Part shown: one piece after another, positions 1,411-12,648 of the stretch
Layout of the letters: every line of letters begins with the position of its first letter
Numbering within the stretch: the stretch's first letter is position 1
Assembly: GCA_016193115.1 (NCBI GenBank)
Contig: JACPSV010000011.1
Location: forward strand, 1 to 12,648
Reading direction: 5' to 3'
From: Elusimicrobiota bacterium
GTDB lineage: Bacteria; Elusimicrobiota; Elusimicrobia; 2-02-FULL-39-32
Length of the DNA: 12,648 bases
Program-made: the position numbers and the translations under genes
Notes under the pieces: generated by a model
What the model was told of the DNA's origin: nothing
The model's database searches: none
What the model saw: only the letters and a program-made list of their open reading frames with translations

Positions 1411-3878
1411 TTATTCATCTTTTTCTTTCGCGTGACGAAGCAGGAAATGGAATGTGGAACCTTTGCCCAGATCCGATTCTACCCAGATCTCTCCGCCATG
1501 CATTTCCACAATGGATTTTGCGATGGCCAGTCCCAACCCCGTGCCGCCCGCCTGGCGGCTCAGAGAGCTGTCCACCTGAAAAAATTTCATGAATATCTTC
1601 ATTTGATCCTGAGGCTTGATTCCGAGACCGGAATCGGAAACGCTGACCAAAACGAAATCGCCCCTGTCTTTGGCGGTCATCGTGATCTTCCCTCTAGGCG
1701 GGGTAAACTTCACCGCATTGCTCAAGAGGTTGTCCATCACCTGCTTGATACGCATGTCGTCCACCAGCACGGGCGGCAGATTGGGAGAAACCTGCAAAGA
1801 AAGTTCAATTCCTTTCGATTGCACGATTGTGAGATAGGCCTCCTGCATGTCGTGTAGAATTTTTCCCAGAGAGGCCGTTTCCATCTTCAACTTGATTTGC
1901 CCCCCTTCGATGCGGGACACGTCCAGAAGATCTGAGATCAGGTAGGTCAACCTCTCCACGGAATGTTGGGCGATCGTGAGCATGCGTTTCTGTTGCGGAG
2001 TCAGTTTTCCCGCCTCGCCGTAATAGACGATGTCCACCGCCCCTTTAAGCGCCGTCGTGGGCGTTTTCAGCTCGTGGCTGACGATGGAAAGAAACTCCAT
2101 CTCACTTTGTTCAATCGGTCCAGCTCTTTGTTCGCAAGCACGAGCTGGTCGTACAAACGCGTGATCTGCACGATCGCGGCCGTGTTCTGCGCCACAAGTT
2201 CCGAGAGGGTCAAATGGTAGGAGTTGAAATAAGACTCTTTCTTGCTTCCCGCCTTCAAAACGCCCATCGTGTCCGGACCCACGCGCATGGGAACAAAAAT
2301 CATGGAGCGAATTCCTTCCACAATTTCTTGCGATTTTTCGTTCATGTCCGGACCCGGAATTTGAGAGATCGTCTTGGATTCGCCCAGACGAAACACGTGG
2401 CTGCTCCAGGCGTCCGGATCCTTGACGGACAACTGCGCCGGGTAGCTTTTGACCGTCAATCTTTCTTCCGTCGTACACCGCGTCACCAGATAGCCCGTGT
2501 TGGGTTCCAAAACCATAAAGGCGCAATAGTCGCAGCCCAACACCCGGACAATGATCTGTCCGATCTTTTCTAAAACAAACTCAAAGACCGGCGTGGAATA
2601 AAACGCTTCGCTGACTTCTTGCAGAGTGGAAAGCACCGTCAAACGGTTTCGAACTTCCAGAAACTGTTGCAAACTCTCAATGGAATTGGCGACCTGAGAG
2701 GCAACCAAACTGAGGGATTGGAGTTCCTCATCTTCTAATCCTTCCGGATCTCTGTCGGGAATACCTTCTTCGTTGAAAAAATCTATCAGAACCATGGCGC
2801 CCAAACTTTCCTGATACCTTTTCAGCGGAACCGCCGCCAGGGAATGAAATATGATCCTTCTAAAACTTTCCGGCAAACCGGAACCTATCTTCCAAGGGAG
2901 TTCCTCATACAAGGATACGGGACGGTCGGCCTTGAACACTTTGATCTCGCCGCTTTCAAACGCGTCCAGAACGCATTTCATGCTGGGCCCGCACTCCGGA
3001 TAATTCTGGGTCGTCAAATGGAGCCAATGCTGCGTGTCGCGGGACAACCCAAAAGACGGGTATTGGGAAACCATGTCCACAAAATCTTTTTCGTTAGAAA
3101 CGTTTACAAAAAAACCGACCATCTTGACGGAGAAGAGGTCTCTCACCCGCGCGGTCACCAGTTCCAGAAACTCGTCTTGTTTCTGAATGGATTGGGCCGT
3201 CGAGCTGATCTCGTAGAGCGCTTTCAAGGAGCGAACCCTTTGAATCAGACGGTGGTTTGTGCGCGTCAGCTCTTGTGTCGTGGCGGAAACTTCCGATTCC
3301 AGACGACGGTTAAATTTTTCCAGCTTTTCCATCAGCAAAGAGTTGCCGATCGTCATCGCCAAAACGCGAACGTAAGGATCCAAGGCGTCAATCTCTTCTT
3401 TACTAAAGGATGTTCTCTGAGGCGTCGCCGCCAGGAAGACCGCGTTCGTCTCGTTCCGAAAAACCACAGGCGCCAGGAAAATTTCTTCCCAACCCTTAAA
3501 GTCCGGATTTCCGCGCGGGAAAGTTTTGCTCAAAAAGTCTTCCGCGGAAATTTTTATTTTCTGGCCGCGCGTGAAACAGTTCCCCATCGGCCCTTCCCCG
3601 ATGGGAATCTGAAGTCCCGAGATCGTATCCGCCGGAAACCCGCACTGGGCGCGCGCGCGGAAAAAACGATCCTCTTCGATCATGAAAACAGCGCAGGCGA
3701 ACGGAAAGGTTTCGCGCATTCCCCGCAAGAAAAATTGGAGAGACTCTTCCAACCCTTTACGGTTGGCGCTTTCCTGGGCAATCAGTAAGAGCCGTTCCAA
3801 TGGCGAAGACGCAGGCTCCGGTTTTGACTCTGAGGGAGACGCAGAGATCAGGCGGGAAAAAAATTCTCTAATTTTCAA
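1411..3878 (-). CDS. multi-GAF sensor histidine kinase, reading frame broken near 2100
   Basis: This is a soluble sensor kinase; I see no membrane segment. The 5' frame (3878-2067) encodes 603 residues with three GAF-like sensory domains at roughly 30-185, 215-400 and 415-575, joined by helical linkers. It reads correctly to LDRLNK (about residue 591), then goes out of frame into a short nonsense tail. The kinase core continues in the next frame from about 2103 to 1411. It shows an H-box (SIVSHELKTP), N-box (DNLLSNAVKF), G1 (DSGLGI), FFQVD and G2 (GGTGLGLAIAKS). Joining the frames with one added base in the GTG codon gives LNKVEMEFLS and about 822 residues, the normal spacing for this family. 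The start is TTG at 3878 with AAGGA/TAGGA upstream, 12 nt after the preceding stop. No response regulator is seen. It follows the BMC genes in the same direction and may regulate them, but this is inference. Confidence 0.8.
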
Positions 3879-3890
3879 TCAATCCTATCC

Positions 3891-4199
3891 TTACTCAAAA
3901 ACAATTTGAATGCCTTTCTCTTGGATCCATTCTTCTGCCAAAGGACTGACGATCGCGGAGGAAGGCAGGACACATTTTTTCTTGCCTCCGGAAAGAAGTT
4001 TTTTTATTTCGTATTCGGAAAAAAACAGGCGCCGCGCGGGTAAATTGGTTTTTCCACGATTGAACGGATCTTTGAGAAAAAATCCCCATTGGCCTGTTCT
4101 GGGAACTTCTTTCTCCAGTTCATTTCTGAAATCCCGCGTTCCCGGAGCAGGCCTTAATTCCTCAAGGAGCATCTCCACAATATCGTCTTCCAAATCCAT
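3891..4199 (-). CDS. 102-residue BMC-adjacent protein of unknown function
   Basis: I do not recognise this protein as a named family. Its N-terminus (MDLEDDIVEMLLEELRPAPG) could form a short acidic amphipathic helix followed by a Pro/Gly break, which is the shape of a BMC encapsulation peptide. The middle (FFLKDPFNRGKTNLPARRLF) is basic. The C-terminus reads SEYEIKKLLSGGKKKCVLPS followed by SAIVSPLAEEWIQEKGIQIV. From memory, a similar 'LP..A..(T/S)P.A.(E/D)...e.gI.i' pattern occurs in EutT-type proteins and in some other BMC-associated proteins. I have not verified that resemblance. The gene starts 30 nt after the last BMC-H gene and ends 12 nt before the kinase start. The start is ATG 4199, with no clear ribosome binding site and a hairpin filling the gap upstream. 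Confidence 0.65.
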   Translation of the reverse strand: MDLEDDIVEMLLEELRPAPGTRDFRNELEKEVPRTGQWGFFLKDPFNRGKTNLPARRLFFSEYEIKKLLSGGKKKCVLPSSAIVSPLAEEWIQEKGIQIVFE

Positions 4200-4229: not shown

Positions 4230-4529
4230 TTAGAAAGTTCCTTCCACTCTTTTGAGATACTTTTCTAAATCGCCGTGCGGGCGGGGAATCACGTGCACGC
4301 TGACCAGCTCGCCCACCTTCTGCGCGGCCGCCGCGCCTGCCTCTACGGCCGCGCGCACAGCGCCCACCTCTCCGCGGCAGAGTGTGGTCACCAGTCCCGA
4401 CCCAATTTTCTCATAACCCACCATCCTGACCTTGGCGGACTTGGCCATGGCGTCGCTCGCCTCGATCATGCCCACAAACCCGCGCGTCTCAACCAAACCC
4501 AGCGCTTCCGACCCATTTATTTCTCCCAT
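4230..4529 (-). CDS. BMC-H hexameric shell protein (second copy)
   Basis: A 99-residue single-domain microcompartment shell protein of the BMC-H family (Pfam BMC), forming the hexagonal tiles of the shell facets. The domain begins with [20 protein letters not shown]. The KIGSGL pore loop lies at residues 41-46 and the canonical [15 protein letters not shown] segment follows. The C-terminus [19 protein letters not shown] is typical. It is clearly paralogous to the BMC-H at 8995-8696. It differs by a six-residue N-terminal extension and by Cys instead of Phe before RGEV. The start ATG 4529 lies inside the end of deoC (13-nt overlap), with a strong GAGGAGG about 10 nt upstream. This is one of the best ribosome binding sites in the operon, which fits the high copy number of hexamers. 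Confidence 0.96.
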
Positions 4530-5182
4530 GTTTTAGATTCCTCCTCGATTATTGCTGTTCCCGTCACGATCGCGACGGAGGCGGAACTGCCAATCCGGGT
4601 CGCGCCTGCCTGAACAAATTCTTCCGCTGCGCTCAAACTTTGAATGCCTCCCGCAGCTTTCACGCCCATCCGAGGACCCACCGTCTCACGCATCAAGCGC
4701 ACATCCTCCAGAGTAGCGCCTGACTTGGAAAATCCTGTAGACGTTTTAACAAAGTCCGCACCCGCCGATTGGGCTATCCGGCAAGCCCGCACTTTTTCCT
4801 CCCTGTCCAGAAGCGCGGTTTCCAGAATCACTTTTAAGATTTTCCCTTCCGCCGCCTCACGCACAGACCGTATGTCCTGCAAGACCCGCGCATCGTCCCC
4901 AGACTTCAGAAATCCGAGATTCAAAACCATGTCCAGTTCTTCCGCCCCGTTGGCGATAGCGTCCCTGGACTCCCAAACTTTCGTGCCCGTCGTCTCGGTT
5001 CCCAACGGAAACCCAATCGTGGTACAAACTTTGACAGGGCTCCCGCGCAAAACCTTAGCCGCTAGAGAAACGTATGCGGGGGCGACGCAGACCGCGGCAA
5101 AACTAAACTGTTTGGCTTCGTCACAAACTTTCTCGATCTCTGAAAAAGTGGCCGTAGGCCGGAGAAGCGTGTGATCTATCAA
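4517..5182 (-). CDS. deoC: deoxyribose-phosphate aldolase (DERA)
   Basis: Class I aldolase that reversibly cleaves 2-deoxy-D-ribose-5-phosphate into acetaldehyde and D-glyceraldehyde-3-phosphate. Its catalytic residues are all present: Schiff-base lysine K146 in FVKTSTGFS, the second lysine K175 in GVKAAGGI, and D84 in ELDMVLNLG (numbering from TTG 5182). It has 221 residues, near the usual length for short bacterial DERAs. I see no N-terminal encapsulation helix. The start is uncertain. TTG 5182 leaves only two residues before the conserved DHTLL and has no ribosome binding site. The frame is open upstream, and family members carry a few more residues there ([10 protein letters not shown] is encoded). 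A non-standard start such as ATT 5191, or CTG 5203 overlapping the preceding stop (CTGA), is possible. The gene lies directly after a BMC-P gene. It is the likely signature enzyme of this BMC, producing the aldehyde that the shell contains. Confidence 0.95.
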
Positions 5183-5199
5183 TCGCGCAATCGGGTGGA

Positions 5200-5496
5200 T
5201 CAGTGGTACCGTAAATCTTTCCCCTTGGAATGCACGGTATCCACCACGCCGCAGACCGTCAACCGTACCGGCGCTTTCGCATTCTTAAGTATCTGTCGTG
5301 ACGAATTCCCTTCATCCACAAGCAAGACAGTATCGCCCGGACCGGCCCCAAAAGTTTGCTCCACCGCTAAAACGGCGTCTCCCACGATCTTGCCGTCGTT
5401 GCAATCCATCTTCTGTACCAGAAGCAGTTTAGAACCTTCCAGACCGCTGTGTTTTCTTGTCGCCCAAACGTTTCCCACCACTCGCGCCACAAACAT
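5200..5496 (-). CDS. BMC-P (EutN/CcmL) pentameric shell protein (third copy)
   Basis: A 98-residue shell vertex protein of the EutN/CcmL/PduN family. Pentamers of this fold cap the twelve corners of the polyhedral shell. Recognisable parts are the opening MFVARVVGNVWATRKHSGLE, the KLLLVQ strand, the VGDAVLAVEQTFGAGPGDTV loop region and LLVDEGNSSRQI. It starts with ATG 5496 only 3 nt after the previous BMC-P stop. I see no convincing Shine-Dalgarno sequence, so translation probably depends on coupling. It is clearly distinct in sequence from the other two BMC-P copies, so the three probably have different partners or positions. Confidence 0.94.
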   Translation of the reverse strand: MFVARVVGNVWATRKHSGLEGSKLLLVQKMDCNDGKIVGDAVLAVEQTFGAGPGDTVLLVDEGNSSRQILKNAKAPVRLTVCGVVDTVHSKGKDLRYH

Positions 5497-5499
5497 AAA

Positions 5500-5796
5500 T
5501 TAAAGTGTCTTAGTCCATTCCTGCAGGTTGATTCCGTCTACGATCCCAACGATGGCGGCGTCAACGGGAGGGGTATCTTGAAGGGAGTTTCCTCCCAGCG
5601 AGAACGCCGCTTCTCGGGCAGCGACCCAGAAGACCAGCTCGTTTGCGCCGGCGCCCACCGTATCGGCCGCTACGATCGGGTCTCCCACCTCTTTTTCTTC
5701 CCAACTCAAGGGCTGAATCAAAAGCAGTTTCACCGATTCCAGAGTTTCATATTTTCTGGAAGCGACCACGCGCCCTACGACCCGAGCCGCTTGCAC
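5500..5796 (-). CDS. BMC-P (EutN/CcmL) pentameric shell protein (second copy)
   Basis: A 98-residue EutN/CcmL-type vertex protein. Family features are the ARVVGRVVASRKYETLESVK opening, KLLLIQPL, the VGDPIVAADTVGAGANELVF core and the closing VGIVDGINL. The loop WVAAREAAFSLGGNSLQD replaces the usual GSSAR-type loop and makes this the most divergent of the three pentamers. The start is GTG 5796, with AGGAGG inside the end of rpiB about 11 nt upstream; the gap to rpiB is 6 nt. The GTG start fits the low number of pentamers needed per shell. Confidence 0.92.
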   Translation of the reverse strand: MQAARVVGRVVASRKYETLESVKLLLIQPLSWEEKEVGDPIVAADTVGAGANELVFWVAAREAAFSLGGNSLQDTPPVDAAIVGIVDGINLQEWTKTL

Positions 5797-5802
5797 GTTA
5801 AC

Positions 5803-6246
5803 TCACGCCTCCTGTTCCATCTGGGCAATTTTCCGGATACGACGCAAATGTCTGCCGCCCGCAAATTCGGTTTTCAACCATGCCTGAACCATTTTCTCTC
5901 CTTCATTCAACGAAAGAAGCCGTCCGGACAAACAGAGAACGTTCGCCTGATTGTGCTCGGAAGCGAGCGCCGCGGTTTTGGCGTTCCAGCAAACCGCCGC
6001 TCTCACGTTCTTAATTTTGTTGGCGGCCATCGCCATCCCAATGCCCGTGCCGCACACCAAAATACCGCGTTCCGCGCGGTTCAGAGAGACAGCGCGTCCC
6101 ACCTTCTTGGCGTAGTCCGGATAATCGCAGGAATCTTCGGAATAGCAACCCACATCCACCACGCGGTGACCCATCCTGGAAAGAGCGGTGATCAACTCTT
6201 TCTTCCTCTTAAATCCGGCATGATCCGACCCAATCGCAATTTTCAC
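5803..6246 (-). CDS. rpiB: RpiB-type sugar-phosphate isomerase
   Basis: A 147-residue member of the LacAB/RpiB family, which interconverts aldose and ketose phosphates (classically ribose-5-phosphate and ribulose-5-phosphate). Visible landmarks are IGSDHAGF (residues 5-12), CDYPDYA (40-46), the catalytic-cysteine loop VCGTGIGM with C65, and EHNQANVL with H98/N99. The C-terminal segment EFAGGRHLRRI is normal and complete. The start is GTG 6246 within a GTGA overlap with the BMC-T stop, so the two genes are translationally coupled. RpiB next to DERA in a shell operon is the diagnostic pair of SPU-type BMC loci. The real substrate here may be another sugar phosphate, since DERA needs a 2-deoxy pentose phosphate and nothing in the window makes one. 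No obvious encapsulation helix is present. Confidence 0.94.
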   Translation of the reverse strand: MKIAIGSDHAGFKRKKELITALSRMGHRVVDVGCYSEDSCDYPDYAKKVGRAVSLNRAERGILVCGTGIGMAMAANKIKNVRAAVCWNAKTAALASEHNQANVLCLSGRLLSLNEGEKMVQAWLKTEFAGGRHLRRIRKIAQMEQEA

Positions 6247-6794
6247 TGCGTTAACGCTTTTAACAACGATTTGTGAGCGTAAGGGATGACCACCGAACCA
6301 ATCAGCATGCCTTCTTTTTTGATCGTTTCCACGCCCGCATTCACGGCGGACCTGACCGCTCCCACTTCTCCCGTGAACGTGACAAACCCTTTTCCTCCCG
6401 CTCCTTTTCCCGGAAAAACCTCGATCAACGTGACTGCCGCTTTTTTAACCGCGGCATCGGCCGCGAAGATAGACGCCGCGACGTCTTTGGTTTCAATCAC
6501 TCCGACGGCTTCGATCTCTTTCACCTGAATCCGCGACTGCAGGGCAGGGAGTACCTGCTGGTGCACGTTGGGAATCAGGAAAAAGTCAATCAGGGTTTTG
6601 TCTGCGGTCTGAATGCCCGCCTGCAGAGACTGTTCCACTTCCGCTTGTTCCCCGCCAATCAAAATCGTAAACTTTCCGCGCGGGATGGCCTGAGTTTGGA
6701 GAAGGTCTACCTCCGCCATCTTCATCATCGCGTCCACAGTTTCAATCCCTTTCGAGATGGAACTCAATTCCAGAAAAGCGATCGCTGGTTTCAT
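6243..6794 (-). CDS. BMC-T tandem-domain (trimeric) shell protein, PduT-like size
   Basis: Two fused BMC domains make a trimeric pseudohexamer of the shell facet. I place the start at ATG 6794 (183 residues), because GGGAGG (6807-6802) is 7 nt from it and only 1 nt from the ATG at 6800. Domain 1 spans about residues 1-90 (AIAFLELSSISKGIETVDAM, then PRGKFTILIGGEQAEVEQSL). Domain 2 spans about 91-183 (AVGVIETKDVAASIFAADAA, then GFVTFTGEVGAVRSAVNAG). The pore loop of domain 2 is glycine-rich (FPGKGAGGKG). There is no cysteine in the whole protein, so it cannot bind a cluster through pore cysteines as PduT does. A single-layer trimer is more likely than the double-stacked gated type, but that is inference. 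The gene lies between the inverted-repeat element and rpiB, with a GTGA overlap with rpiB. Confidence 0.93.
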   Translation of the reverse strand: MKPAIAFLELSSISKGIETVDAMMKMAEVDLLQTQAIPRGKFTILIGGEQAEVEQSLQAGIQTADKTLIDFFLIPNVHQQVLPALQSRIQVKEIEAVGVIETKDVAASIFAADAAVKKAAVTLIEVFPGKGAGGKGFVTFTGEVGAVRSAVNAGVETIKKEGMLIGSVVIPYAHKSLLKALTQ

Positions 6795-6801
6795 TCGCAT
6801 T

Positions 6802-6807
6802 CCTCCC
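6802..6807 (-). promoter_or_regulatory. ribosome binding site that decides the BMC-T start
   Basis: On the minus strand, GGGAGG lies one base before ATG 6800 and seven bases before ATG 6794. Only the second spacing is normal, so the protein most likely begins MKPAIAF and not MRMKPAIAF. The site abuts the edge of the 136-bp inverted-repeat element and partly overlaps the 8-bp direct repeat TCCCTATA (6804-6811, plus-strand reading). Confidence 0.6.
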
Positions 6808-6943
6808 TATAAGGGCCTGTTACGAAACGCCCCTTTTTACGTCATTCCCGCGAAAGCGGGAATCTAGTCGGCGGAAAATCCGTTCTGGATTCCCGCTTTC
6901 GCGGGAATGACGGAGTAAAGATCATTTCGCAACAGTCCCTATA
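6808..6943. repeat. 136-bp MITE-like element of nested inverted repeats
   Basis: This fills almost the whole 151-nt gap between the aldehyde dehydrogenase stop (6946) and the BMC-T start. Two 28-nt blocks, 6840-6867 and 6885-6912, are inverse copies differing at one base. Each contains the palindrome ATTCCCGC / GCGGGAAT around a 4-nt loop. Outside them is a second, imperfect pair: AGGGCCTGTTACGAAA (6812-6827) against the complement of TTTCGCAACAGTCCCT (6925-6940), with 2 mismatches in 16. The outermost bases are TATA on both sides (6808-6811, 6940-6943). The 8-mer TCCCTATA is repeated directly at 6804-6811 and 6936-6943. The ATTCCC-N8-GGGAAT core resembles dRS3-like palindromes found in many bacteria (from memory). 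It codes for nothing. In RNA it would fold into two hairpins, one with a GAAA loop, or one long duplex. Confidence 0.75.
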
Positions 6944-6945
6944 AA

Positions 6946-8373
6946 CTAAACAATCCTCAAATATCCGACTAGAGAGCAGTGGAGCGGGCGGCAGAAATGG
7001 CTGGGTTTTGTGAGGCCGTCTCCCGTTGGAGTTCCGATCGTCATCGTGGCAAAACCTTCCCCCATTCCAAGACCCATATAGTTAGGACCGTTCTTGACAA
7101 AAATGGAGCAGGCCAACCCGCGCGCCGCCTGTGTGATGTTGCCCACATGCAAAGAGTAGATGGAAGCGGTGTGATGGTTGCCGCCCTCCGCCCGTTTGGC
7201 CAGATCCACCGCTGCCCTAAAATCCGGGACCCGCGTGATAGGCAAAACGGGCATGAGCTGTTCGATCCAAACGAAAGCATGATCGTTGGGCACTTCTCCC
7301 CACAACAAACGGATGGAATCGGAAATTTCCATGCCCAGCGCCCGCGCAATTACGGACGCGTTCTTGCCGACGAACTCACGATTCAAAACCGGCCCTTTTC
7401 CGTCACCCGCCACCTTAAAAACTTTCTGAGCCAACGCGTCCATTTGTTCCCGTGTCAATTCCTGCGCGCGCGCATCTTTTCTTAAACAGGAAACCAACGA
7501 ATCCGCAATCGCCTGCACGACAATCACCTCTTTCTCGCCGGTGCACAAAACGCAGTTGTCAAAAGATGCGCCATCCACAATCCCTCTGGCTGCGGAGGGA
7601 ACGTCGGCTGTCTCATCCACAATCACGGGCGGGTTACCCGGCCCGGCGCAAATGGTTTTTCGGATGACGCCCAGAGACATGGCTGCTTTGACAATCCCCG
7701 GCCCTCCCGTGACCATATTGAGATGCACGCCCGGATGTTTCAAAAGGTTCAGAGTATTTTCTTCGCTCACCGGCTCGAACGTGGATACCAACCCATGCGG
7801 ACCGCCGGACGCGCAGATGGCTTGATCCAGGACGCGTATCGTCTCTTGACAACATTTTTTTGCCGCCGGGTGCGGAGCGAACACCACCGCGTTGCCTGCG
7901 GAGAGGATCGAGATCGTGTTGTTGATGATCGTGGCGGTAGGGTTTGTGGAAGGCGTGACGCTCGCCACGACGCCAAAAGGCGCCGACTCGATGAGAGTCA
8001 ATCCCTGGTCACCTGTATACGCCTGAACCGGCTGGAGATCTTCCGGGCCGGGAGTCTTTAAGGAGACCAGAACATTCTTCTTAGATTTGTCTTCCCACCG
8101 GCCGAGACCGGTCTCCTCATGCGCCATCTTGGCCAATCTTTCCGCGTTCTCAAATCCCGCTTTACGGATCGCGGCGATCAGATTGCGGCGGAACTCGAAT
8201 CCCTTTTCTTGAAAGAGTATCTGAGATTCCCCCGCCGACCGAACCGCAGACTCAACCGTCGGGTGGACCCCGTTTCCGGAACAGACGGAACCTGTCGCGT
8301 GCTGAGAATCGGATCCCAACCGCTTCAAAACTTCGCGCACCAAGACTTGAATTTCTTCTTCCTGTAACGGCAT
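6946..8373 (-). CDS. BMC CoA-acylating aldehyde dehydrogenase (PduP/EutE-like)
   Basis: Oxidises an aldehyde (here probably acetaldehyde) with NAD+ and CoA to the acyl-CoA. The 475 residues begin with MPLQEEEIQVLVREVLKRLG, an amphipathic helix followed by a Ser/Gly-rich linker to about residue 37: a classic N-terminal encapsulation peptide. The catalytic domain shows the cofactor motif MVTGGPGIVKAAM (220-232), AGPGNPPV (243-250) and FDNCVLCTGEKE, with the likely catalytic cysteine C277. A second cysteine, C274, replaces the more common Asn. The C-terminus (HCSLVGYLRIV) matches the family end, so the protein is complete. The ATG at 8373 is 5 nt after the BMC-P stop and has only a weak ribosome binding site. 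The next gene is BMC-T, across the inverted-repeat element. PduL, encoded upstream, would use the acyl-CoA. Confidence 0.96.
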   Translation of the reverse strand: MPLQEEEIQVLVREVLKRLGSDSQHATGSVCSGNGVHPTVESAVRSAGESQILFQEKGFEFRRNLIAAIRKAGFENAERLAKMAHEETGLGRWEDKSKKNVLVSLKTPGPEDLQPVQAYTGDQGLTLIESAPFGVVASVTPSTNPTATIINNTISILSAGNAVVFAPHPAAKKCCQETIRVLDQAICASGGPHGLVSTFEPVSEENTLNLLKHPGVHLNMVTGGPGIVKAAMSLGVIRKTICAGPGNPPVIVDETADVPSAARGIVDGASFDNCVLCTGEKEVIVVQAIADSLVSCLRKDARAQELTREQMDALAQKVFKVAGDGKGPVLNREFVGKNASVIARALGMEISDSIRLLWGEVPNDHAFVWIEQLMPVLPITRVPDFRAAVDLAKRAEGGNHHTASIYSLHVGNITQAARGLACSIFVKNGPNYMGLGMGEGFATMTIGTPTGDGLTKPSHFCRPLHCSLVGYLRIV

Positions 8374-8378
8374 ATTCT

Positions 8379-8687
8379 TTATTTCTTTGTGAAATCGTCT
8401 CTCTTGGAGAAGATTGTTTCCCTACCCTTTTCAATCGTGTCCACGACGGCAAATATCGTGCAGTCCACCGGGTTCCCTTCCGTCCCGCGCGTCTGTCGCG
8501 CGGAAGAACCCTGCACAATCAAGACGAGCTCGCCTTCGCCGGATCCCACCACATCAATAGCAACCAGCGGAGTCCCTTGGGCGGCCCCTTCCAGATTGAC
8601 TGGCTGCACCAGAAGAAGTTTTGTGCCGACAAGCTTCTCGTCTTTGCGAGTACAAACGACGTTCCCGACTACTCGCGCAAATATCAC
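8379..8687 (-). CDS. BMC-P (EutN/CcmL) pentameric shell protein (first copy)
   Basis: A 102-residue EutN/CcmL-family shell vertex protein. I place the start at GTG 8687, with TAGGA about 7 nt upstream. This gives the standard opening (M)IFARVVGNVVCTRKDEKLVG. The frame stays open upstream to 8900, but that part only overlaps the BMC-H gene and has no family similarity. Other landmarks are KLLLVQPVNLEG, PLVAIDVVGSGEGELVLIVQ and GSSARQT, the latter two typical of EutN. A charged tail (FSKRDDFTKK) extends beyond the fold. The gap to the BMC-H stop is 8 nt, and 5 nt separate its stop from the aldehyde dehydrogenase. Confidence 0.94.
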   Translation of the reverse strand: MIFARVVGNVVCTRKDEKLVGTKLLLVQPVNLEGAAQGTPLVAIDVVGSGEGELVLIVQGSSARQTRGTEGNPVDCTIFAVVDTIEKGRETIFSKRDDFTKK

Positions 8688-8695
8688 TAAATATC

Positions 8696-8995
8696 CTACC
8701 GTTTTCCCCGGTTCAGTGTTTCCGGCAGAGAGATCGGCATCTTGCCTTCCAAGTCCGGATGCGGCTGGGGAATCACATGCACGCTGACGAGTTCGCCCAC
8801 TTTTTGAGCGGACGCTGCGCCCGCATCGCACGCGGCTCTGCATGCGGCCACTTCTCCCCGAAACAGAACCGTCACCAATCCCGACCCGATCTTTTCCCAA
8901 CCCACGATCCGCACATTCGCGGCTTTCACCGCAGCGTCACCCGCTTCCACCAACGCCACTAACCCGCGCGTCTCAATCATGCCTAACGCATCCAT
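8696..8995 (-). CDS. BMC-H hexameric shell protein (first copy)
   Basis: A 99-residue BMC-H shell protein with the canonical opening [20 protein letters not shown], the KIGSGL pore loop at residues 35-40, and [20 protein letters not shown]. It carries two nearby cysteines ([10 protein letters not shown]) that the second BMC-H lacks. The C-terminal tail ([19 protein letters not shown]) is basic and differs from the other copy, so the two hexamers may present different surfaces. The start is ATG 8995 with a strong GAGGGGG 6 nt upstream and a 14-nt gap after the purU-like gene. The good start signal agrees with its expected role as the main facet protein. Confidence 0.96.
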
Positions 8996-9009
8996 GTTCT
9001 ACCCCCTCA

Positions 9010-9867
9010 TTAACGGACATGCACTTTGCCCCAGTAAACTTCCAGCTTCTTTTCCAAAAAGAGTTTGACGCCGTTTAAGAGAGTGCGCGCTTCCTGTTCC
9101 TGGCCCCTTTTACGGATGGAATCCACGTTTTCGTCCCACCGAACCCGAAACGCGTCCTGCCAGAGGATGGGACCCTCATCCAAATCTTCCGTCACAAGGT
9201 GAGCCGTGCAACCGACGATCTGCGCTCCTTTCTCATAGGCTTGACGATAAGCATAGGCCCCGGGAAAAGCGGGCAAAAGGGAAGGATGCACATTGATGAT
9301 TCGGTTTGGATAACGCCAGACAAAGTTGGGAGTCAGAATTCGCATGTAGCGGGCCAGGACGACAAAATCAATATTGAATTTTTCCAGAAGTTTTAGAATG
9401 CGGATTTCTGCCTGCGGTTGGTCGCGGTGAGTGACAGAGAAAAATGAGGTCTTTCCTTTCTGCGCCATCCCCTTCAAGCTTCCTTCACTGCCGACAATCA
9501 GAGGGATATTCACGCGGATTTCCCGCCGGTTCGCGGCGTTCAAGATCGTCTCCAGACAATGCGGTTCCTTGCTGACAAGGATCGCCATGTTTTTGGCTCG
9601 GTCAGGCTCATCAAAATGGACTTTGACCTCCATGCCAAACTTCTTCCCAATCCCTTGCAGTTCCAACCGGAACCGGCTTTCATCCAAAGATTCCCTTCGG
9701 AAAGAAGATTCCAACTGCATCCCAAAGAGACCGCCGATCACATTTTGGTTAATTTTTTCAATGTTGCCCTGACTCTGGAATACGAAGTCCGTGACCGCCG
9801 CCACAATGCCTTTACGGTCAGGACCCACCACCGTGACCTCCGCTAACGTGCGTTTCTTCCGTTTCAA
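9010..9867 (-). CDS. purU: PurU-like formyltetrahydrofolate deformylase
   Basis: A 285-residue protein with an N-terminal ACT domain (about 7-85: AEVTVVGPDRKGIVAAVTDF) and a C-terminal formyltransferase fold (about 93-280). PurU hydrolyses 10-formyltetrahydrofolate to formate and tetrahydrofolate. The catalytic triad of the superfamily is present: N192 and H194 in INVHPSLLPAFPG, and D230 in TEDLDEGPI. The ACT domain separates it from PurN. However, HPSLLP is closer to the PurN/Fmt spelling than E. coli PurU's HHSFLP. The start is TTG 9867, overlapping the pduL stop as TTGA. No encapsulation helix is visible; the N-terminus is basic (MKRKKR). Its place inside a shell operon, between pduL and BMC-H, is unexpected. 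A folate-linked one-carbon role, or a changed substrate, remains open. Confidence 0.88.
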   Translation of the reverse strand: MKRKKRTLAEVTVVGPDRKGIVAAVTDFVFQSQGNIEKINQNVIGGLFGMQLESSFRRESLDESRFRLELQGIGKKFGMEVKVHFDEPDRAKNMAILVSKEPHCLETILNAANRREIRVNIPLIVGSEGSLKGMAQKGKTSFFSVTHRDQPQAEIRILKLLEKFNIDFVVLARYMRILTPNFVWRYPNRIINVHPSLLPAFPGAYAYRQAYEKGAQIVGCTAHLVTEDLDEGPILWQDAFRVRWDENVDSIRKRGQEQEARTLLNGVKLFLEKKLEVYWGKVHVR

Positions 9868-10490
9868 AGAATAGTGACGAGATCTCCGTTCTTAACGTTA
9901 AAACTGTTGCCTTCGTCCGTGTCCAGATGACATTCCAGTTTCATGTCCTCGCGCACGCGGCACAACACCGTGATCGTTCCATCCCGCGGCGGAGCGCCTA
10001 CCCGGACTTTGACCGTTTCCATGTTCTTGACGCCGTACTTTTCCGCTTCCGAAGTGTGGAAATGGATGTGCCGCATTTGGATGATTGCCCCTTCCGGCAA
10101 ACGCGCTTCCCCTTTTGGGCCGACCAAAGTGATGGGCGCAGAACCTTTGACGTTGCCCGAATCCCGCACGGGCGCGTCAATTCCCAAAGCATGGCAATCG
10201 GTTCGGGAAAGTTCAATCTGGTCGTAGGCGCGGAACGGCCCGATCATGCGGACTTTCTTGATTTCACCTTTAGTCCCTCGAAGGGTAACAGTTTCCCTGC
10301 ACGCGAACTGGCCGGGCTGAATAAGGTTTCGAATCGGGGTCGGCTGCGCGCCTTCTCCAAACAATTTTTCAAAAGTTTCCTTTGTGCAATGCCAATGCCG
10401 GTTGGAGATATTGACAACCAAAGGCCACTTGTCGCGTTCAATCCTTTGCATGATTTTCTCCGTCACTCTTTGGACCAGATCGTCAGACAT
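9864..10490 (-). CDS. pduL: PduL-type phosphotransacylase
   Basis: Converts acyl-CoA and phosphate into acyl phosphate and free CoA, regenerating the CoA pool inside a microcompartment. I start it at ATG 10490 (208 residues), which overlaps the tpiA stop as ATGTCTGA. A TTG at 10514 is in frame but buried in tpiA. The N-terminus MSDDLVQRVTEKIMQRIERD is an encapsulation-peptide-like amphipathic helix. Zinc-ligand candidates are H32/H34 in SNRHWHCT, H141/H143 in MRHIHFH and H188 in LECHLDTDEGN. These correspond to the RH.H, RHIH and E.H.DTDE motifs of the family. The bulky and Cys substitutions (HWHC, where V-H-L/V-H-x is common) are mild oddities. Acetyl phosphate would need acetate kinase, not encoded here, to yield ATP. 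Confidence 0.95.
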   Translation of the reverse strand: MSDDLVQRVTEKIMQRIERDKWPLVVNISNRHWHCTKETFEKLFGEGAQPTPIRNLIQPGQFACRETVTLRGTKGEIKKVRMIGPFRAYDQIELSRTDCHALGIDAPVRDSGNVKGSAPITLVGPKGEARLPEGAIIQMRHIHFHTSEAEKYGVKNMETVKVRVGAPPRDGTITVLCRVREDMKLECHLDTDEGNSFNVKNGDLVTIL

Positions 10491-11253
10491 CGCGGTAACG
10501 CACGATACGCTCAAAATCGGCCACTTTTAAGCTGGCTCCGCCCACCAACCCGCCGTCAATGTCCGGTTGCGCCATTAAAGAATCAATGTTGTCCGGCTTG
10601 ATGGAACCGCCATACAGAACTCTTATTTTCTCGGCCGCTGATTTTTCATACAGATCGCCTAGAATTTTGCGGATGGACGCGTGCATCTCCTGCGCTTGAT
10701 CGGGAGTTGCGGTTTTCCCAGTCCCTATAGCCCAGACCGGCTCATACGCGATCACAAGACGCAACGATTCCTGCGCCGTGAGACCGGAAACGCCAACCCT
10801 CAATTGCCGGTCCACCACAGAGAGGTGTGATCCGCTCTCCCGCTCCGCCAAACTTTCTCCCACACAAACCACCGGCAGGAGTCCGTGCTGGAACGCGGCT
10901 TTCATTTTTTTGTGGACAGTATCGTCCGTCTCTCCAAAATATTGTCTGCGCTCCGAATGGCCAATCAGGACATAATCGCAGCCCGCATCTTTCAGCATGG
11001 GAGCGGAAACTTCGCCCGTAAAAGCGCCCTGCATTTCCCAATGCAGATCCTGGGCTCCCAACCGAATCCCGGTCCCTTTCGTGATTTCTTTAACGGAAGT
11101 TAAGGAGGGAAACGGAGGGCAAACCAAAACCTCGCGCCCGTTCACGGCGCGGCAAGCGTTGACCAGATCGCGCGCAAACGACACGGACTCGCTCACGGTC
11201 TTGTACATCTTCCAATTGCCGGCCAACAAAGGAACTCTGGTTTTCATGCTCAT
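10483..11253 (-). CDS. tpiA: triose-phosphate isomerase
   Basis: Interconverts glyceraldehyde-3-phosphate and dihydroxyacetone phosphate. The 256 residues are full length, with all catalytic residues: K15 in AGNWKM, H99 in IGHSERR, and E171 in AYEPVWAIGTG. The phosphate-binding loop VLYGGSIKP and GGLVGGASL are also present. It is the first gene of the shell operon and its stop overlaps the pduL start. No targeting helix is visible, so it likely works in the cytosol on the glyceraldehyde-3-phosphate made by DERA. It could also be simply the housekeeping copy. The start is ATG 11253; a second ATG follows at 11247 and the ribosome binding site is poor (AAGAA). A perfect hairpin lies in the leader just upstream. 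Confidence 0.97.
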   Translation of the reverse strand: MSMKTRVPLLAGNWKMYKTVSESVSFARDLVNACRAVNGREVLVCPPFPSLTSVKEITKGTGIRLGAQDLHWEMQGAFTGEVSAPMLKDAGCDYVLIGHSERRQYFGETDDTVHKKMKAAFQHGLLPVVCVGESLAERESGSHLSVVDRQLRVGVSGLTAQESLRLVIAYEPVWAIGTGKTATPDQAQEMHASIRKILGDLYEKSAAEKIRVLYGGSIKPDNIDSLMAQPDIDGGLVGGASLKVADFERIVRYRDV

Positions 11254-11351: not shown

Positions 11352-11393
11352 GTAAATTAGGGACAGCGCCCTAGGGCGCTGTCCCTAATTTAC
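11352..11393. repeat. perfect 42-nt palindrome after the DUF47 gene, possible terminator
   Basis: The sequence is its own reverse complement over 42 nt, centred on CTAG at 11371-11374, with a GC-rich inner part (GGGACAGCGCC) and AT-rich ends (GTAAATTA). It begins on the last base of the DUF47 stop codon (11395-11393). Because A-rich and T-rich ends flank a strong stem, it could terminate transcription from either side, although a true U-run is lacking. AAATTAGG is also repeated directly just beside it (11345-11352, 11354-11361). The style recalls REP-like dispersed palindromes, which would need genome-wide copies to confirm. Confidence 0.65.
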
Positions 11394-11995
11394 TATGCGG
11401 TTTTGACAAGGATGTCGCCGATGATGTCGGCGGCCTCGTCGCCACGGTCCGCCGCGTTAGACAAGTGGCGGTAAATCTCCCTGAGCTTTAGGATTTGTAA
11501 GACGTCAGAGGTTTTAAACAGTTCCGCTAATGCCGCTCGATAAAGGTGCTCCATATAATTTTCTGTCTTCTTGGCGGAGACGACCTTCTCGTTGGCTAAA
11601 CGCGGATTCGAATGCATCAGGCGCACGGCCTCATCAATATCTTTGGAAGCGCGGTGCAGGACTTCCGTCATCTTCTTGATATGATCGTTGGTTCCCGCTT
11701 CAAAGAGCATCATTTCTTCAACGGTAGATTTGGCGTAATCGCACATATCGTCTATGGCGCGCGATAGAGCAAAAATGTCTTCCCGGTCTATGGGCGTGAC
11801 AAACGTCCGGTTCAATTCCTCAATCAAAATCCGGCGTAGGTCGTCCGCTTCGTTTTCTATGCGGCTGACCGTCTCTCCTTTTTCCTGAGCCGGATCTTGA
11901 GCAAAATCAAAAAGCGCTTGCATGCCTTCCTCTACTTTTTGGGACTGGTTCGCAAGCATCTTATAAAAATCCCTCTTCTTCGGAAATGGCCACAT
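11393..11995 (-). CDS. DUF47/PhoU-like accessory protein of a Pit phosphate transporter
   Basis: A 200-residue all-helical protein of the PhoU-like DUF47 family. Such proteins are often encoded beside Pit-type phosphate transporters and are thought to modulate them. Visible features are MWPFPKKRDFYKMLANQSQK at the N-terminus, the acidic metal-ligand-type segment SRIENEADDLRR (about 44-55), FVTPIDREDIFALSRAIDDM (about 65-84), and a C-terminal ENYMEHLYRA...DRGDEAADII helix. PhoU relatives bind metal clusters through such E/D-rich motifs. The start is ATG 11995, 4 nt after the transporter stop, so the two form an operon. This pair is ordinary phosphate handling and probably unrelated to the shell genes, apart from lying upstream of them. 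Confidence 0.92.
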   Translation of the reverse strand: MWPFPKKRDFYKMLANQSQKVEEGMQALFDFAQDPAQEKGETVSRIENEADDLRRILIEELNRTFVTPIDREDIFALSRAIDDMCDYAKSTVEEMMLFEAGTNDHIKKMTEVLHRASKDIDEAVRLMHSNPRLANEKVVSAKKTENYMEHLYRAALAELFKTSDVLQILKLREIYRHLSNAADRGDEAADIIGDILVKTA

Positions 11996-11999
11996 GGTT

Positions 12000-12648
12000 T
12001 TACGGAACTAACACGCCTTTTAAGATGCGGCACAAGGACGCGGAGAGAATGGCCGTCACGGGGATCGTGATCAGCCAAGTCAACACAAATTCTCCGGCAA
12101 TCGTCCAACGCACCGCTTTAGGCCGAAATGCGGCGCCGGCTCCGAGTACGGAGGAAGAGAAGATCACATGCGTGGTCGAAAGCGGAATTCCTAATGCGGA
12201 CGCGGATAAAAGAACCGTTCCGGAAGAAAACTGGGAGGCAAAAGAATGAATCGGCCTTACGACGTAAAGACTATAACCTAAACGTTTGATCACTCGCCAT
12301 CCTCCTATAGAAACGCCTAACGCTAACGATAAAGCAGTGGAAACGATCGTCCAGTTCGGTAACCAAACTCCTCTCTCTCCCGTGTTTCCATACAGAAATG
12401 TCAGGGAAAGAGCAATGATACCCATCGCTTTTTGGGCATCGTTGCTGCCATGCGCTAACGATTGAGCCAACAAAGAAACAATTTGAAATCCGCGGAAAAG
12501 GCGGTTCGCCTGTGGCGTGGCAACTTGGGTTAGAAAAAATGTGACTCGCGTAAAAAGGTAGGTCAGCAGGAATCCGCACAGAGGCGCAATGAACATGGCC
12601 ACCAGAATTATTTTCAAAGTCCCCCATTGAAGCGACCTCAATCCAAAC
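12000..12648 (-). CDS. Pit-family inorganic phosphate transporter, C-terminal part
   Basis: Only the last about 215 residues are in the window. The frame remains open to the right edge, and the leading TTG at 12641 is not a real start, because family members are far longer and have two homologous halves. The second-half signature is clear in QSLAHGSNDAQKAMGIIALS (PHO4/Pit GxNDxxK-type motif). Hydrophobic segments alternate with short loops: IILVAMFIAPLCGFLLTYLF, ALSLALGVSIGGW, VLLSASALGIPLSTTHVIFS and FVLTWLITIPVTAILSASL. Pit carriers move phosphate, often as a metal complex, with protons or sodium. Stop to DUF47 start is 4 nt. Substrate specificity cannot be told from this half. Confidence 0.93.
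   Translation of the reverse strand, partial: FGLRSLQWGTLKIILVAMFIAPLCGFLLTYLFTRVTFFLTQVATPQANRLFRGFQIVSLLAQSLAHGSNDAQKAMGIIALSLTFLYGNTGERGVWLPNWTIVSTALSLALGVSIGGWRVIKRLGYSLYVVRPIHSFASQFSSGTVLLSASALGIPLSTTHVIFSSSVLGAGAAFRPKAVRWTIAGEFVLTWLITIPVTAILSASLCRILKGVLVP

Follow-up and report, generated by a model that had tools for sequence, protein, structure and literature searches.

The bacterial microcompartment (BMC) operon described here raises the question of which of its enzymes work inside the protein shell and which do not. The operon lies in a stretch of 12,648 nucleotides (the window, meaning the whole stretch that was analysed), which is contig C248 of an Elusimicrobiota draft genome (G000, hereafter the source genome; 1.50 Mb, 321 contigs, 80% complete). 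It has the genes of a sugar-phosphate-utilising (SPU) metabolosome, including a deoxyribose-phosphate aldolase (DERA) reduced to its bare catalytic domain. From the sequence, it is proposed with moderate confidence that this SPU-type compartment handles the acetaldehyde half of the breakdown of nucleosides (DNA sugar), with DERA, RpiB and triosephosphate isomerase (TIM) acting at least partly outside the shell. For comparison, a sample of 294 Elusimicrobiota genomes was used, of which 99, the source genome included, hold a BMC-P gene, and the window proteins were compared with loci from 58 of the remaining 98. All locus comparisons were made within Elusimicrobiota, and published SPU loci were compared by description. 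One locus on a shared contig (L042, with L039) and two 1-kb placeholders (L053 and L054) were excluded from every locus count. The window belongs to family f1, whose six genomes include three with a completeness of only 80-82%.

The original prediction placed thirteen genes in positions 4230-11253. Twelve minus-strand genes lie within that span, and a thirteenth gene of the locus stands just beyond it, at 3891-4199. Transcription runs from high to low coordinates, several adjacent genes overlap by a few bases, and the order is as follows:

10483..11253, minus strand: TIM, the first gene of the locus (PF00121, 332.5 bits)
9864..10514, minus strand: PduL phosphotransacylase with an encapsulation-peptide-like N-terminal helix (PF06130, 217.4 bits; PRK15070, 226.3, cut-off 209)
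9010..9867, minus strand: PurU-family formyltetrahydrofolate deformylase, with a 4-nt overlap with pduL (PF00551, 144.1 bits; PRK06027, 232.7 bits, cut-off 223; TIGR00655, 228.9, under its cut-off of 285.95)
8696..8995, minus strand: BMC-H shell protein H2 (PF00936, 96.0 bits)
8379..8687, minus strand: BMC-P shell protein P3, GTG start placed from the sequence (PF03319, 99.8 bits, scored on the longer frame 8379-8900)
6946..8373, minus strand: acylating-type aldehyde dehydrogenase (AldDH) with an N-terminal encapsulation-peptide-like helix (PRK15398, 553.8 bits, cut-off 403)
6243..6800, minus strand: BMC-T shell protein, PduT-like, two-domain (PF00936 twice, 136 bits)
5803..6246, minus strand: RpiB, canonical (type b, RpiBb), catalytic Cys65 (PF02502, 193.4 bits; TIGR01120, 172.6, cut-off 138.65)
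5500..5796, minus strand: BMC-P shell protein P2 (PF03319, 86.6 bits)
5200..5496, minus strand: BMC-P shell protein P1 (PF03319, 82.1 bits)
4517..5182, minus strand: DERA, catalytic domain only, starting at TTG or at an upstream ATT (TIGR00126, 274.4 bits, cut-off 117.3)
4230..4529, minus strand: BMC-H shell protein H1 (PF00936, 97.5 bits)
3891..4199, minus strand: sm102, a protein of 102 amino acids with an encapsulation-peptide-like N-terminal helix and the C-terminal part of TIGR02536

The profile searches bear out the predicted shell kit of two BMC-H, three BMC-P and one BMC-T proteins, all above the Pfam cut-offs, and the four core enzymes, DERA, RpiB, AldDH and PduL, which passed the cut-offs of TIGR00126, TIGR01120, PRK15398 and PRK15070, respectively. 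DERA also scored above cut-off with pfam01791 (DeoC; 77.8 bits) and RpiB with pfam02502 (LacAB_rpiB; 193.4 bits), the Pfam families Aldedh, PTAC, TIM and Formyl_trans_N were matched as well, and the BMC-T protein reached 134.4 bits with TIGR02526, under its cut-off of 250.3. The core catalytic residues had been called intact; this holds for the DERA motifs and the RpiB residues, and for AldDH and PduL it is known from profile scores and inspection only. The operon had also been called complete. This calls for qualification: the DERA has no N-terminal extension, and the locus showed no gene for an alcohol dehydrogenase.

As in the ethanolamine (EUT) and propanediol (PDU) metabolosomes, an AldDH of the PRK15398 subfamily, which we take to be the EutE/PduP type, stands with PduL and with EutM/EutN/PduT-like shell proteins. 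Unlike in these systems, no B12-dependent or other known signature lyase was recognised in the window, and DERA would supply the aldehyde. In the parts of the published accounts available to us, all seven SPU subtypes share sugar-phosphate enzymes of pfam01791 and pfam02502 beside shell genes (PMC8217296), and SPU loci have AldDH, in most cases PduL and, in an Atribacteria locus, TIM (Axen 2014, PMC4207490); with more than 280 loci in 26 phyla, SPU is among the most prevalent predicted BMC types (Sutter 2021, PMC8217296). The window resembles SPU loci as described there (PMC4207490, PMC8217296) in its shell genes, DeoC-type aldolase, RpiB, AldDH and PduL and in having no alcohol dehydrogenase in the locus, and it resembles the Atribacteria locus of 2014 in its TIM. 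The predicted SPU assignment, with shell genes, pfam01791 and pfam02502 joined by AldDH, PduL and TIM, fits these published features, and the deoxypentose-phosphate path suggested with it is the one proposed in the same accounts (PMC4207490, PMC8217296). Judged by its defining enzymes, the locus is rightly placed as a predicted SPU metabolosome, a kind already published. It differs from the SPU loci, as far as these are described there, in a DERA without an extension, PurU in the operon, canonical RpiB only, and sm102. We would call it a variant, which appears to retain the shell with AldDH and PduL and holds an aldolase without the module of its relatives. A search of open-licence literature by titles and abstract openings returned, among the matches listed, no biochemical study of an SPU compartment, and of the open-licence papers listed for Elusimicrobiota and microcompartments none, judged by title or abstract opening, dealt with such a locus.

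The arrangement is kept across the phylum. In 56 of the 58 other loci the genes present stand in the window order, with tandem RpiB genes, split AldDH genes and extra leading BMC-T genes counted once or set aside, and the genes found lie on a single strand in all 58. A chance operon was ruled out by this retained order. All twelve core genes (PurU not counted) occur in 38 of the 58 loci, and some of the remaining loci run off their contigs; TIM is present in 52 and sm102 in 41. The two exceptions in order (L057 and L058, family f15) represent a different BMC set, with AldDHs 32-34% identical to that of the window and several BMC-H genes. It had been allowed in the original prediction that DERA and RpiB might prove to be unrelated housekeeping copies present by chance; both do look like housekeeping enzymes, but their place is not due to chance, given the gene order shared across the phylum. 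PurU was found in only three other loci (3/58), all of the window's family, which makes four loci with the window. In a concatenated tree of 20 loci, the PurU-bearing loci group with the window (97/98 support) within a fully supported family.

Each of the 49 other locus DERAs carries, ahead of its catalytic domain, an in-frame N-terminal extension of at least 41 residues, measured from the first upstream ATG. A GxxGKxF motif was found in every one of these extensions (47 by pattern, two by eye), at least two cysteines lie near the catalytic domain in 43 of the 49, and an encapsulation-peptide-like first helix was seen by eye in six of the nine extensions printed in full. The window DERA, as read in one draft contig, has no N-terminal extension and no ATG upstream of its domain, and it starts 17 nt past the end of a full-length P1. 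The motifs of the three positions that we take to be catalytic (the Schiff-base Lys, the second Lys and the Asp), including LDMV, are intact in the window and kept in all five family copies, on which ground a pseudogenised DERA was rejected.

The bare DERA could in principle be a draft assembly artefact in which a stretch between P1 and DERA was lost, which is quite unlikely. In its favour are the single contig of an 80%-complete draft, a histidine kinase in the window split by a frame change that is not seen in four family relatives, and a DERA start that is TTG or ATT with no ATG. P1, however, is full length up to its end just ahead of DERA, and in the nearest relatives the extension is already shortened or DERA is missing; in the window's family the extensions measure 65, 65, 44, 41 and 0 residues.

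DERA also diverges unusually fast in this family. Its mean identity is 54.8% within the family (6 pairs) against 75.3% between loci of other families (14 loci, 91 pairs; L041, a near-copy of L040, was omitted from the identity table), whereas the other ten locus genes compared, RpiB and PurU not being in the comparison, are more alike within the family (AldDH, 66.8 vs 60.2; TIM, 64.1 vs 55.7; BMC-T, 74.9 vs 48.0). The window DERA is 70% identical to the f10 copy and 55-60% identical to those of its own family. A foreign replacement was nevertheless rejected: the DERA tree places the window copy with no other family and the family copies are long-branched, so that fast evolution in place is the simpler reading, within a tree that is weak at the window, where long branches meet under a quick method and the window falls in no starred set. 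The reversed identities would also suit an unlikely explanation, namely that the compartment of this family has changed its substrate or is losing the DERA step, so that shell, AldDH and PduL would treat acetaldehyde of another source and DERA would be a leftover nucleoside-salvage enzyme. The shortened extensions, the family genome in which no DERA was found (G280) and the absence from all six family loci of RpiBa, an RpiB form considered below, point the same way. Against it stand the catalytic motifs kept in all five family copies, the nucleoside genes of the source genome, and a locus in which no further enzyme that forms an aldehyde was recognised.

Encapsulation-peptide-like N-termini were found by inspection on AldDH (N-termini set out for the window and ten other loci), PduL and sm102. 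Out of 5000 shuffles, the hydrophobic moment was reached by 222 for AldDH and 149 for PduL, which is weak, and it was not significant for sm102 (504) or a helix of RpiB (665); the DERA extensions of L063 (4) and L079 (32) gave a strong result. The assignments of encapsulation peptides are based on position and conservation, not on this moment test. Read in this manner, the evidence for encapsulation is fair in the case of AldDH and PduL; for DERA, RpiB and TIM it is poor. Only AldDH and PduL look targeted, and DERA, RpiB and TIM are probably active in the cytosol, at least in part. The view that DERA and RpiB are evident encapsulated cargo was not upheld: the encapsulation-peptide-like extension expected of the aldolase is absent from the window DERA, RpiB starts at its own domain, and both are the sole copies found.

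It is possible, although less probable than the cytosolic reading, that the locus encodes the standard SPU metabolosome of the original prediction and the catalogue papers, with DERA, RpiB, AldDH and PduL all inside, where sugar phosphate would enter via shell pores and the untagged DERA would be recruited, for example by sm102 or by enzyme contact. The operon order and co-inheritance agree with this arrangement, the extension in all 49 other locus DERAs suggests that an encapsulated DERA is the rule in the phylum, and the widespread sm102 carries an encapsulation-peptide-like N-terminus. It agrees less well with the missing extension, with sole copies of DERA and RpiB that probably serve the cytosol as well, and with DERA being alone among eleven locus genes in its lower likeness within the family than among other families.

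Genomes of family f2 that have no BMC provide a further comparison. TIM and DERA are adjacent in all 13 searched (by position), and the nine DERAs read are bare, with 211-218 residues. The f2 pair is like the window in its bare DERA and unlike it in having no shell, AldDH and PduL in between. Two f2 genomes carry a BMC locus, G130 in full and G134 to the contig end. Most simply, f2 would have lost the shell, AldDH and PduL that once separated TIM from DERA, and the extension along with the shell; this reading supports a targeting role for the DERA extension. In one genome of family f4 without a BMC-P match (G032), TIM adjoins an RpiB.

In some families the DERA extensions reach about 280-300 residues. 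Of the three long extensions scanned, those of L095 (9e-9) and L099 (2e-4) match TIGR02536, an ethanolamine-operon protein, over its N-terminal part, and that of L046 gave no such match. DERA is fused to long N-terminal domains in L095, L098, L099, L046 and L047. The C-terminal 45 positions of the same profile (162-206) match sm102 at 27.2 bits, under the cut-off of 152.6, and perhaps the N-domain fused to DERA and the C-domain of the separate sm102 are the parts of a split accessory protein. The sm102 alignment has 36 members, and among the best 120 of 319 database matches all that name an organism are Elusimicrobiota.

The source of the sugar phosphate is not in the window, as had been predicted, and was found elsewhere in the genome. 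A 6-kb contig (C91) of the source genome holds both transketolase halves, followed by deoB (483.9 bits), a purine nucleoside phosphorylase (315.6), a pyrimidine nucleoside phosphorylase (525.8) and a last gene that looks RecJ-like. In another genome of the family (G053), deoB lies 11.5 kb and a pyrimidine phosphorylase domain 13.8 kb from DERA on one contig. Read from the observed gene content and order, the DERA and RpiB motifs, the upstream genes and the missing extension, the reactions and their locations would be as follows. By phosphorolysis, the nucleoside phosphorylases for purines and pyrimidines would release deoxyribose-1-phosphate from deoxynucleosides, and the tagged AldDH within the shell would convert the acetaldehyde to acetyl-CoA. 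PduL would regenerate CoA, releasing acetyl phosphate, and TIM would drain the triose phosphate. Ribose-5-phosphate from ribonucleosides and the pentose phosphate pathway would be handled by RpiB with transketolase. The DERA reaction is reversible. Taken with the sole DERA found in the genome, this would permit an anabolic use, in which acetyl phosphate yields acetaldehyde and DERA joins it with glyceraldehyde-3-phosphate into deoxyribose-5-phosphate; such a use is highly improbable, as nucleoside phosphorylases and DeoB beside transketolase read naturally as a catabolic set.

Several observations weigh against the proposed partly cytosolic, nucleoside-fed system. Across the sample, deoB scored above cut-off in 17 of the 99 BMC-bearing genomes and in 124 of the 195 others. 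G280 keeps shell, AldDH, PduL and RpiB, and no DERA was found in its 81%-complete genome, so the aldehyde there may come from another source. No iron-type alcohol dehydrogenase scored above cut-off in the source genome, other alcohol dehydrogenase families not having been searched, which bears on the recycling of NAD; the iron-type enzyme was also rejected as a missing core enzyme, being above cut-off in one of the six family genomes (36.3 bits). Finally, a partner may recruit DERA, or its lack of an extension may stem from an assembly error in a single draft genome.

As to the distribution of deoB, it lies within 25 kb of DERA or shell genes in six of the 17 BMC-bearing genomes that have it (G053, G124, G018, G006, G009 and G035, by hand). 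The genomes of families f3, f7 and f8 are among the 82 of 99 without deoB above cut-off; on rechecking eight of them, four gave a divergent DeoB-like match below cut-off and four gave none. The divergent DeoB-like proteins of four BMC-bearing genomes (L120-L127; f3 and f7) have best pieces of 117.5-136.3 bits against a cut-off of 341.2. A pyrimidine phosphorylase domain was found in 89 of the 99 BMC-bearing genomes (one of these, G271, below cut-off) and in 132 of the 195 others. The deoB distribution does not support a DNA-sugar supply that partners the shell throughout the phylum; the nucleoside route is well supported for the source genome and is not a phylum rule.

The operon copies of TIM and DERA are the only ones found in the source genome. 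A single full-length TIM is present in 35 of the 36 BMC-bearing genomes searched, and in 33 it lies on the contig of the shell genes (by hand); G053 and G102 show additional partial TIM matches, which fall within a frame some 4,000 residues long. RpiB is present as one gene per genome in the six family genomes, always the operon copy. RpiA was found in none of 50 genomes searched and in eight of 14 control genomes, which suggests that RpiB probably serves ordinary pentose metabolism too. All triose and ribose phosphate isomerases found in the window's family are encoded in the operon, and so is the DERA where one was found.

The RpiB of the window keeps Asp8, His9, Cys65, Thr67 and His98 and is of the canonical Cys form (RpiBb); in a second form, RpiBa, Asp replaces the catalytic Cys. 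Among the 55 loci with RpiB, the window included, 40 have RpiBa only, nine have RpiBa beside RpiBb, and six, all of the window's family, have RpiBb only. The Cys65 to Asp change is present in all 49 RpiBa loci (that of L092 was missed by the pattern and assigned by eye). In 48 RpiBa rows, Asp8, His9, His98 and Arg136 are invariant, Asn99 is replaced by Asp or Glu, and Thr67 by Phe in 42, whereas Cys65, His98 and Asn99 are invariant in 15 RpiBb rows. A tree built by a quick method from 33 of the 55 RpiB loci, 14 of 20 off-locus stretches (those meeting the start pattern) and L108 gave the 27 RpiBa rows and the 14 rows of off-locus RpiB as one supported group each (99), and did not show RpiBb as a single group. 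Position 65 is Asp in 118, Asn in two and Cys in none of the best 120 of 1334 database matches to RpiBa (115 called by pattern, the rest by eye), and these best 120, where an organism is named, come from Elusimicrobiota, bar two called only 'bacterium'.

The roles of RpiB residues are treated in the available parts of two papers (PMC3755991, PMC4783025). In LacAB, the active site is formed by Cys-65 from LacB and His-96 from LacA, the His serving ring opening and the Cys isomerisation, and the Mycobacterium tuberculosis enzyme has a catalytic Glu at another position (PMC3755991); by analogy, Asp65 of RpiBa could act as an alternative base in catalysis. The nine loci of other families with neighbouring RpiBa and RpiBb are like LacAB as described there (PMC3755991), in that RpiBb keeps the Cys half-site and RpiBa His98; the window, with RpiBb only, is unlike this arrangement. 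The RpiBa of L079 is nearer to RpiB (132.6 bits, 3he8) than to LacA (56.5 bits, 4lfk_A). Deoxyribose-5-phosphate has no C2 hydroxyl, which the enediol mechanism requires, and an RpiB with the ring-opening His and without the Cys is then at least suggestive. A doubtful but specific extension would be that RpiB is no isomerase for the substrate of the compartment and that RpiBa opens the furanose ring and passes the aldehyde on to DERA. Loss of RpiBa would then have released the DERA of the window's family, with its lost extension, fast evolution and absence from one genome, RpiBb would have stayed as the only ribose-5-phosphate isomerase found, and the compartment would be losing its signature step.

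Further features adjoin or interrupt the operon:

6812..6940: inverted-repeat (MITE-like) element between AldDH and BMC-T, with 56-nt arms, 82% complementary
11393..11995, minus strand: DUF47/PhoU-like protein, the upstream neighbour (PF01865, 71 bits)
12000..12641, minus strand: PHO4/Pit phosphate transporter, truncated at the contig end (PF01384, 153.6 bits)

The tiny gaps reported between genes hold in general and fail once, at the sole sizeable gap of the operon (6801-6945, 145 nt, between AldDH and BMC-T), which the inverted-repeat element occupies. The first 20 bases of this element have no exact match in the other fetched loci, and two loci of the window's family (L039 and L043) have larger gaps at the same site. 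A perfect 42-bp palindrome at 11352-11393, between the DUF47 gene and TIM, is perhaps a terminator between operons; its 32-bp core has no exact match in the other fetched loci. Promoter and terminator scans of the window stayed at chance level, and no Rfam match in the window exceeded the gathering score. The DUF47 gene and the Pit transporter adjoin the operon in several relatives too, a context that may be related to the use of phosphate by both phosphorolysis and PduL. A GAF-domain histidine kinase (1411-3878, minus strand) is broken into two overlapping frames in the window and is a single long frame of 806-840 amino acids in four family relatives (L039, L040, L043 and L044); the split is either a sequence error or a broken gene. 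The window BMC-T lacks the CPGKY cysteine present in L063, L095 and L099. Loci of family f3, including L048, L049, L060 and L063, have a second PduT-like BMC-T ahead of TIM, with the CPGKY cysteine seen in L063. In 22 loci, a neighbouring protein looks PduS/RnfC-like. The second PduT-like BMC-T and the PduS/RnfC-like protein would form an electron-export pair, and the window is without both.

In conclusion, what is new here is an upstream route in the same genome, a DERA without its extension, a Cys-to-Asp RpiB as the usual form in loci of the phylum where the window's family has only the Cys form, and a TIM, DERA and RpiB that are each the only copy found in the 80%-complete genome. The Cys-to-Asp RpiB paralog poses a cheap and specific biochemical question on an isomerase homologue in a deoxyribose compartment. 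Furthermore, the extended DERAs, the bare DERA of the window, the shell with no DERA found in G280 and the bare TIM-DERA pair without a shell in f2 make up a natural test series, which informs how such an organelle works and how it falls apart.

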